Assembly (NCBI GenBank): GCA_020723105.1
Contig: DYJL01000024.1
Location: forward strand, 1 to 46,291
Origin: Nitrospira japonica
GTDB lineage: Bacteria; Nitrospirota; Thermodesulfovibrionia; UBA6902
DNA: 46,291 nucleotides
Reading direction: 5' to 3'
A program made the position numbers and the translations under genes. Below are positions 36,682 through 40,209 of this stretch, in pieces. The notes below the pieces were generated by a model. It was not told the DNA's origin. It ran no database searches and saw only the letters and a list, made by a program, of their open reading frames with translations. The stretch's first letter is position 1. Each line of letters starts with the position of its first letter.

Positions 36682-36794
36682 TTATGCTATTAATCATTAA
36701 ACATCTTAAAAATCATTTAAGATCTTTCAGCAGACATGAAAGCCTGTTTCAGCATTTCTATAATCGACATTTTTATAACGACCCGTTTAAGCTG
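36682..36794 (+). pseudogene. duplicated copy of the 5' region of the downstream HAD gene
   Basis: The DNA from 36682 aligns colinearly with the upstream and first codons of the HAD gene at 39511, once a 173-bp insertion there is removed: 54 bp separate the shared TTATG word from the ATG in both copies. Here the ATG at 36736 starts MKACFSISIIDIFITT, against MEACFRLILFDIDGTLITT in the intact gene. Three codons of the DxD motif are deleted, and the frame then runs on in phase into the next GT2 gene. Confidence 0.75.
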
Positions 36795-36815
36795 TTTAAA
36801 CCGCTTAAACCGTTT
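36785..36815. repeat. degenerate 9-bp tandem repeat
   Basis: GTTTAAGCT, GTTTAAACC, GCTTAAACC and GTTT follow one another, and then a CTACACGCTACACCCTACGC stretch. This low-complexity DNA lies between the HAD relic and the GT2 start. Confidence 0.6.
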
Positions 36816-36888
36816 CTTGTTTATACCCCCTACACGCTACACCCTACGCCCTGTCTTTTTGTCTGCAACCATTGGAACAGAATTCACC

Positions 36889-37638: not shown

Positions 37639-37641
37639 AGT

Positions 37642-37714
37642 GTCATTTCGAACGAAGTGAGAAATTTTAAATGTCAAAATACAAAGAAAGATTCCTCACT
37701 TCGTTCGGAATGAC
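37642..37714. repeat. palindromic repeat at the GT2/speB convergence
   Basis: Two 20-bp arms, GTCATTTCGAACGAAGTGAG (37642-37661) and CTCACTTCGTTCGGAATGAC (37695-37714), are inverted with one mismatch. The element lies between convergent genes and could act as a two-way terminator. It also encodes the end of speB. Confidence 0.85.
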
Positions 37715-38574
37715 AACTTTGCAAACCGCAAACTCAAAAGCTTATAGATCAGCTTTGCTGCGAGAAAATCAGGAGCAGGATTGCTCTTTGACGGGCAGAG
37801 CTCTACAACATCAAATCCCACGATATTTTTATTTTTTGAAACGCTCTCTAATAAATCTAATACGTCATACCATCCCAGGCCACCAGGTTCAGGCGTCCCT
37901 GTGGAGGGCATTATAGAAGCATCAAATACATCGAGGTCCATGGAGATATAAACATTGTGAGAGAGTTTTTTAACAACCTTTTTTATCCAGTCTGTTGAGT
38001 GATGAATAGATGATGCATAGAAGGTATTTTGCCTGTTAATATTTTTCAGTTCGGAAGAATCGCTGCTTCTTATCCCAACAGACACAATGTGTTCGGTAAA
38101 TTCCTTCACCTTTGCCATAATACAGGCATGACTGTATTTATTCCCTTCATAGGAATCTCTCATGTCCGAATGAGCGTCAAGATGAAGAATGCTGATATTC
38201 TCAAAAAAATCAGCGTGTGCCCGAATGGTTCCAAGAGAAACAGTATGTTCTCCACCAAGCACAGTAACAAACTTGTTGTCTTCTAAAAAAGCGCTGACTT
38301 TGTCTTGAACTTTAACTGCCATTGCTTGCGGGCTGCCTGCTGTAACTGCTCTCGCTGTATGAATGCCTTTCCTATAAACCTCTGAATTCGTTTCTATGTC
38401 ATATAGTTCCATATTCAGGGAGGCATTAATAATAGCGCAGGGCCCTTTATCAGATCCCTTGATCCATGAACTGGATTTATCAAACGGAACTGGCAAAATT
38501 ATTATCTTTGCATTTCTATAAGCTGAATATTGCTTAGGCAGGCCGCCGAAATTGTATGGGAGATCGTTCGCCAA
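37696..38574 (-). CDS. speB: agmatinase (ureohydrolase family)
   Basis: It hydrolyses agmatine to putrescine and urea with a two-manganese centre. The 292-aa protein has VTVLGGEHT (near 107), HLDAHSDMRD (near 131) and SMDLDVFDAS (near 211), which carry the metal ligands, and the later GFDVVELCPSKS. It directly follows pdaD on the minus strand: the TAA of pdaD is followed at once by the TTG start of speB. The last residues, LSFRTK and the TGA, are encoded by the arm of a palindromic repeat, so the native C-terminus has been replaced. Arginase or another ureohydrolase is possible in isolation; the pdaD partner favours agmatinase. Confidence 0.9.
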   Translation of the reverse strand: MANDLPYNFGGLPKQYSAYRNAKIIILPVPFDKSSSWIKGSDKGPCAIINASLNMELYDIETNSEVYRKGIHTARAVTAGSPQAMAVKVQDKVSAFLEDNKFVTVLGGEHTVSLGTIRAHADFFENISILHLDAHSDMRDSYEGNKYSHACIMAKVKEFTEHIVSVGIRSSDSSELKNINRQNTFYASSIHHSTDWIKKVVKKLSHNVYISMDLDVFDASIMPSTGTPEPGGLGWYDVLDLLESVSKNKNIVGFDVVELCPSKSNPAPDFLAAKLIYKLLSLRFAKLSFRTK

Positions 38575-39198: not shown

Positions 39199-39319
39199 GT
39201 CTATATATCTTTTTTGTCAAAACATATAATTTGTGGATTGCTATCCTGCATTACACGTAAATTTGGAGGAAGCATTGCAAAACTTATGTTATTAATCATC
39301 ATACATCTTAAAATTTATT

Positions 39320-39484
39320 GGTTCATTCGTAAAAAAGTTGAATAATATGAAATAAACACAGAGACACAGAGGCACGGAGAAAGAAAAAAATAATAAACTC
39401 TATGTTTTTATTACTTATTTTCTCTGTGTCTCAGTGCCTCAGTGGTTTTAAAAATTGTTTTTTCAACTAAAATACGAAAGAAGG
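39320..39484. mobile_element. MITE-like palindromic insertion with 8-bp target duplication
   Basis: A 165-bp imperfect palindrome is flanked by AATTTATT at 39312-39319 and again at 39485-39492. Its ends pair imperfectly (GGTTCATTCGTA...AGTTGAA against the reverse complement CCTTCTTTCGTA...AGTTGAA). Inner arms are ACAGAGACACAGAGGCAC and CTCTGTGTCTCAGTGCCTC. The related sequence at 36682-36794 lacks exactly 173 bp here and so shows the empty site. No transposase is encoded. Confidence 0.75.
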
Positions 39485-39510
39485 AATTTATTTAGGATCT
39501 TTCAGCCGAT

Positions 39511-40209
39511 ATGGAAGCATGTTTCAGATTAATTCTTTTTGATATTGATGGAACCTTAATAACTACCGGAGGTGCGGGAGTTCATGCCCTTGAAAGGGCG
39601 TTTCATACCCTTTTTGATATTAAAGATGCTGTTAACTCTATACCAATGGCGGGAAAAACCGACGTACAGATTATCAAAGAAGTCCTCGGATTACACGGAT
39701 TATCCTATCTGGATGGTAACGTTAAGAAAATGCAGGAAATGTATCTCCATTATTTACAAGAAGAAATATGTAACCGGGATAAAAAGCTAAAGCCTGGCGT
39801 GAAAGAGCTTCTTAACCTATTGAAAAATAAAGATATTCCATTAGGTCTCCTCACTGGCAATCTTGAAAGAGGCGCAAAGATAAAGCTCCATCCTTTTAAC
39901 CTTAATGAATATTTTATTGATGGTGCATTTGGCAGTGACCACGAAGACAGAGATGAGCTTTTGCCAATTGCTATAGACAAATTCCGGAGAAAGGGGTTCA
40001 CATTCACTCCGAAGCAATGCATTATTATTGGGGATACGCCAAGAGACGTTAGGTGCGCCAAAATACATGGTGCCAGATGTATTGCAGTGGCAACGGGACC
40101 TTATTCAAAAGAAGAGTTGCTAACTACAGATGCAGACATGGTCCTTGACTCTCTTAGTGAGACAGAACAATATTTAACTCTCTTAACCGGGAATACTGAG
40201 CTTATCTAA
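39511..40209 (+). CDS. HAD-superfamily phosphatase (phosphoglycolate phosphatase-like)
   Basis: A 232-aa HAD hydrolase. Motif I LFDIDGT (catalytic Asp 11, acid Asp 13), motif II LLTGN, a motif III Lys region and motif IV IIGDTPRDVRCA are intact. A helical cap between motifs I and II (about 20-95) is of the phosphoglycolate phosphatase/Gph kind. It could dephosphorylate 2-phosphoglycolate or another small sugar phosphate; the substrate is not certain. Its upstream region carries a MITE-like insertion ending 19 bp before the ATG, which may have altered expression. A decayed copy of its 5' region lies at 36682. Confidence 0.85.
   Translation: MEACFRLILFDIDGTLITTGGAGVHALERAFHTLFDIKDAVNSIPMAGKTDVQIIKEVLGLHGLSYLDGNVKKMQEMYLHYLQEEICNRDKKLKPGVKELLNLLKNKDIPLGLLTGNLERGAKIKLHPFNLNEYFIDGAFGSDHEDRDELLPIAIDKFRRKGFTFTPKQCIIIGDTPRDVRCAKIHGARCIAVATGPYSKEELLTTDADMVLDSLSETEQYLTLLTGNTELI

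Follow-up and report, generated by a model that had tools for sequence, protein, structure and literature searches.

The 165-bp sequence at positions 39320–39484 (plus strand) of the window, the whole 46,291-nucleotide stretch of Nitrospira japonica DNA analysed here, is very probably (roughly 0.92) a non-autonomous MITE of an ISL3-family insertion sequence (IS), which would have been moved in trans with a CACAGAG palindrome as its passenger. Comparison within the genome and with relatives showed the ends of the element, the duplication of its target and an empty site; it also showed that complete ISL3 elements share these ends and duplications, that the cores vary, and that a transposase of this kind is not detectable in its own genome. 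From these comparisons we infer that the element was moved by an ISL3 transposase acting in trans, and that the reaction does not depend on the core. We favour an ISL3-derived MITE with a passenger palindrome because the duplication follows the ends, the cores vary, and CACAGAG palindromes that lack the ends also lack the duplication.

The element, its footprint and its empty site

The left terminal inverted repeat, GGTTCATTCGTAAAAAAGTTGAA, occupies positions 39320–39342 on the plus strand, and the right one, which reads CCTTCTTTCGTATTTTAGTTGAA on the minus strand, occupies 39462–39484. Immediately outside them, the sequence could be read directly as two plus-strand copies of AATTTATT, at 39312–39319 and 39485–39492, matching at 8/8 positions. 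The original prediction had described the insertion as a 165-bp imperfect palindrome plus a second copy of this 8-mer, and had stated that its removal leaves a 21-bp junction with three mismatches; both statements held, since removal of the element and one 8-mer gave junctions AAAAATCATTTAAGATCTTTC and AAAATTTATTTAGGATCTTTC, each of 21 nt and differing at 3 positions. The core, an imperfect palindrome running from CACAGAGACACAGAGGCACGGAG to CTCTGTGTCTCAGTGCCTCAGTGG at 39357–39446, is presumably a passenger, and similar palindromes without these ends are present in the same genome (L002, L003). The folding energy of the 165-nt element was −50.1 kcal/mol, as against −24.0 ± 3.4 in shuffles (z −7.8), and CACAGAGACACAGAGG-like matches occurred three times in the window where 0.11 were expected; the palindrome is therefore not a product of chance. 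The element is short and has no transposase gene, as is the case for MITEs, and the ORF listing contained no ORF of at least 100 aa within it. A search of Rfam with the hairpin returned only sub-threshold matches to microRNA families, far under the gathering scores, which we took as chance. Regulatory roles were also considered and set aside: the single promoter-like match in the region (2.6 expected) lies outside the element, and a scan of the region found no terminator.

The DNA on both sides of the element (39284–39319 and 39485–39527) belongs to one partial copy of a host repeat at 39284–39527 (plus strand), which repeat comparison and a genome search showed to be interrupted by the MITE. 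A longer, uninterrupted copy at 36682–36888 (plus strand, right boundary approximate), delimited by the genome search and by oriented copies, served as the empty-site comparison. Repeat finding matched 36682–36717 to 39284–39319 at 86% and 36710–36752 to 39485–39527 at 84%; the similarity that had been noted between the DNA upstream of the HAD gene and 36682–36794 is thus real, but ends near 36752/39527 and not at 36794. When 36682–36794 was used as the query, 40 matching places were found in the genome, and we rejected the idea that the flanks are a private local duplication, since the flank belongs to a repeat present in 40 or more copies. The insertion point was crossed without the element in 19 of 30 sampled host-repeat copies, so that, together with 36682–36752, the empty site that had been proposed is visible repeatedly. 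In oriented copies the host repeat starts with TTATGTTATTAATCATCAAACATCTTAAAATTTATTTAAGATC, shows inverted symmetry and ends near CATGTCTGCAACCATTGGAACAGAATTCACCATG. This dispersed palindromic repeat (L031–L060) is roughly 200–250 bp long and was not matched to any known family; many of its copies end beside gene starts (...GAATTCACCATG).

Neither the host repeat nor the element is present at the HAD loci of the same-genus relatives G008 and G005. A nested insertion, in which the host repeat arrived before the element, is therefore the simplest sequence of events. Since these orthologous loci lack the host repeat altogether, the exact empty site for 39320–39484 is known from paralogous copies of the host repeat only, though many times over.

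The element lies upstream of a gene for a HAD-superfamily hydrolase (39511–40209, plus strand; Pfam HAD_2), delimited by the ORF listing, Pfam and orthologue comparison, whose predicted start codon falls in the host repeat, 26 bases past the end of the MITE. In the region 39493–39531, this predicted start (MEACFR...) is encoded by the host repeat, and same-genus orthologues have different starts, for example MN...KKLILFDIDGT in G008; the native start region of the gene seems to have been replaced by the host repeat. A separate inverted repeat of TCATTCC-like type, TGTCATTTCGAACGAAGTGAG.../...CTCACTTCGTTCGGAATGACA (89% complementary), is found at 37641–37715, with a glycosyltransferase gene on one side and an arginase-family gene on the other.

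Target duplication and the palindromic core

We searched 101 genomes, comprising its own and those of relatives, for the element, and found near-full-length relatives with 83–86% identity in G004, G006 and G044, each of which holds several copies in differing flanks. A scan of the genomes of about 85,000 species with the left-end pattern returned at least 115 stretches, which among the matches listed came from Nitrospirota, Desulfobacterota, Nitrospinota, Brocadia and others; a scan of viral contigs for the end motif returned none. Of the 119 left ends among the matches listed, a right end could be assigned to only 53, of which 51 had both flanks readable; many of the unpaired left ends lie near contig ends.

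Exact 8-bp duplications were seen in 22 of the 51 paired copies among the matches listed, in several phyla, and the flanks agreed at 7/8 or more positions in 35. When left and right flanks were deliberately mismatched, only 0.27% of pairings were exact and 3.4% agreed at 7/8 or better, and the maxima in 20,000 shuffles were 5 exact and 9 at 7/8 or better. The exact duplications were 91% A+T. The original prediction of a MITE-like, once mobile element that duplicates 8 bp of its target is borne out by these copies and by the exact duplication in the window. The flanks of the other 16 of the 51 listed copies fell below 7/8, as might be seen in copies that are old or rearranged.

The interiors of the 51 paired copies among the matches listed differed widely. 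CACAGAG cores were present between the ISL3-type ends in 11 copies (7 exact duplications), TCATTCC cores in 22 (8 exact), both in 2 (1 exact) and other interiors in 12 (3 exact), while 4 copies had the interior of a complete IS (3 exact); some interiors are remnants of a transposase gene. Hairpin cores are nevertheless the rule despite their differing sequences, since 34 of 44 MITE cores folded with z below −3 in mononucleotide shuffles. Across this set the 8-bp duplication accompanies the ISL3-type ends, irrespective of what lies between them.

We then considered CACAGAG palindromes without ISL3-type ends, of which 22 were available (20 from relatives and 2 from its own genome). Their best match to the ends within 150 bp was 13–16 of 23 positions, as compared to at most 15 in shuffles, and no target duplication was found at them for lengths of 4–9 over 13 × 13 end offsets (within 6). 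The largest excess of duplications, 0.127, was the highest among some 1000 combinations and was attributed to chance. In four genomes (G002, G003, G009 and G017) the element had at least 10 matches each, most of them in the CACAGAG core, and the end motif was nowhere matched exactly. Because these palindrome-rich genomes lack the exact end motif and the 22 palindromes lack a duplication, the CACAGAG palindrome appears to spread by some other way too, and to be cargo here.

These data bear directly on the idea, put forward in the original prediction, that the CACAGAG palindrome is itself mobile, in which case it would be served by a transposase of its own and the TTCGTA-type ends would be mere margins in one subfamily. 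Such palindromes are numerous in relatives, where they outnumber ISL3-type ends and must have spread somehow, and 7 of the 11 paired MITEs with a CACAGAG core have exact duplications. However, the same ends with the same duplication also enclose unrelated cores and are found on complete ISL3 elements, and the 22 palindromes without the ends have no duplication. As the duplication tracks the ISL3-type ends, we consider mobility of the palindrome itself improbable.

A tentative extension of the passenger reading, which we hold to be possible but rather less likely than its opposite, is that CACAGAG and TCATTCC palindromes are hitchhikers: they would enter MITEs belonging to several unrelated families of transposon, and any transposase at hand would then carry them from genome to genome. 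Both types are found between ISL3-type ends with their 8-bp duplication. Comparison of L186 with L257 revealed an insertion with ends TACATGACG.../...CTATGTA, a TA duplication and a TCATTCC palindrome, and comparison of L279 with L225 revealed another, with ends CACAAATTGAGCGATT/CCCAAGTTGAGCGATT, a TATTA duplication and again a TCATTCC palindrome. The insertions in L279 and L186 are second-level events, nested inside ISL3-type MITEs of a single MAG (Nitrospira sp. M_DeepCast), and would fit the picture of the palindrome as cargo. Several CACAGAG palindromes in G039 (L315–L321) are enclosed by a further pair of flanks that recurs (AAAAATGCATTAAAGAA-like), at which no duplication could be defined; these perhaps represent a different MITE family.

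ISL3-family elements with the same ends

Relatives were screened for ISL3 transposases with PF01610. The first bases of one contig of G006 (C24) are identical to the left end of the window element, and this contig encodes an ISL3 transposase that scored over the PF01610 cut-off; two others (C76 and C79) contain the C-terminus of the transposase followed by the matching right end. The complete IS in this genome is split over contigs. In the copy on C24 (L165, about 1240–1320), a TTCCGG-type palindrome cuts the 3′ part of the ISL3 element, and the transposase reading frame continues into the palindrome sequence.

Four complete IS with both ends, 1365–1389 bp long, were identified elsewhere (L256 from a Syntrophaceae MAG, L258, L264 from a Nitrospiraceae MAG, and L276). 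Three of them (L256, L264 and L276) have perfect 8-bp duplications and a right end similar to that of the window element, and the flanking 8-mers of the fourth, L258, match at 4/8 positions. Pfam identified DDE_Tnp_ISL3 (PF01610; E 1.6e-51 to 1.6e-57) and Zn_ribbon_ISL3 (PF14690; E 1.4e-8 to 3.9e-7) in the same three. The full-length transposon with the same ends that had been sought thus exists, and its transposases are of the ISL3 family. Close to one of the end motifs (L079) lies a fragment of an IS3-like transposase, which was judged unrelated.

The only other place in its own genome with both ends, C9:79149–79378, is a ∼220-bp internal-deletion derivative of the ISL3 IS seen in G006 and has no CACAGAG core; its ORF remnant gave no Pfam match alone and was identified through comparison with the G006 IS. 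A profile search found no ISL3 transposase anywhere in this genome, and the MITE is therefore probably stranded there. The window element cannot be an autonomous ISL3 insertion sequence, being 165 bp long with no transposase of its own.

Several IS families generate 8-bp duplications (for example those of the IS256, IS6 or IS66 type), and the MITE could in principle have been moved by a transposase from one of them. Such MITEs do occur in G004 and G007, where an ISL3 transposase was not detectable. We regard movement by a transposase of another family as very improbable, since in the complete elements it is ISL3 transposases that are encoded between the same ends, with the same duplication outside them, and the other copy with these ends in its own genome is a visible deletion derivative of an ISL3 IS. 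That no transposition took place, and that deletion or recombination between host-repeat copies left a chance 8-bp match, can be practically dismissed: the target is AT-rich and repeats do recombine, but exact duplications were about 160 times as frequent over copies (43%) as in the mismatched control, and related elements occupy unrelated flanks in several genomes.

A putative route of insertion and its significance

Taking the MITE to be ISL3-derived, and by analogy with that family, an ISL3 transposase acting in trans would recognise and bind the ∼23-bp terminal inverted repeats, and the ends would be cut and joined to AT-rich DNA at staggered positions 8 bp apart. The target would have been AT-rich sequence from the loop region of a small hairpin, part of the dispersed palindromic repeat upstream of the HAD gene. 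Gap repair would then duplicate the 8 bp (AATTTATT), and the CACAGAG palindrome would be carried along with the ends as a passenger.

The element resembles the ISL3 family (IS204/IS1001/IS1096/IS1165 group) through its complete relatives, which share its ends, encode DDE_Tnp_ISL3 together with the ISL3 zinc ribbon and are about 1.37–1.39 kb long, and through ends that start with GG and an 8-bp AT-rich duplication. The ends of the published ISL3-family transposon Tn7546 are GGGTCTTCGGA, and its duplication, AAAATAAG, is also of 8 bp (PMC9782665). Unlike members of this family, the window element lacks a transposase gene and has only about the terminal 23 bp in common with the IS. With bacterial MITEs, which are IS-derived (compare the Tn3-derived TIMEs, PMC4133298), it shares its short length, the lack of a transposase gene, inverted ends, a target duplication, several copies in relatives and a larger coding relative. 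In contrast to them, it does not contain a shrunken IS: its interior is a dispersed palindrome that is also found without these ends, and the same ends can enclose different palindromes. In being dispersed and forming strong hairpins, the cores of CACAGAG and TCATTCC type resemble REP/BIME/ERIC-type intergenic palindromes, whereas the window element is bounded by IS-type ends and a target duplication. A literature search returned nothing on the CACAGAG string or on such MITEs in Nitrospirae, and the ISL3-derived MITE at 39320–39484 is not described in the literature searched.

The recurrence of the same palindromes in other types of element is an interesting loose end, and the more interesting question raised is how unrelated dispersed palindromes get between the same MITE ends. 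The end motif GGTTCWTTCGTAAAAAAGTTGAA may be used to annotate this ISL3 lineage and its MITEs in Nitrospirota, Desulfobacterota, Nitrospinota and Brocadia genomes. Taken together, these results connect a common, so far unexplained environmental palindrome, in one setting at least, with a named mechanism of mobile elements, and the 8-bp footprint is accounted for by the ends of the transposon and not by the palindrome.
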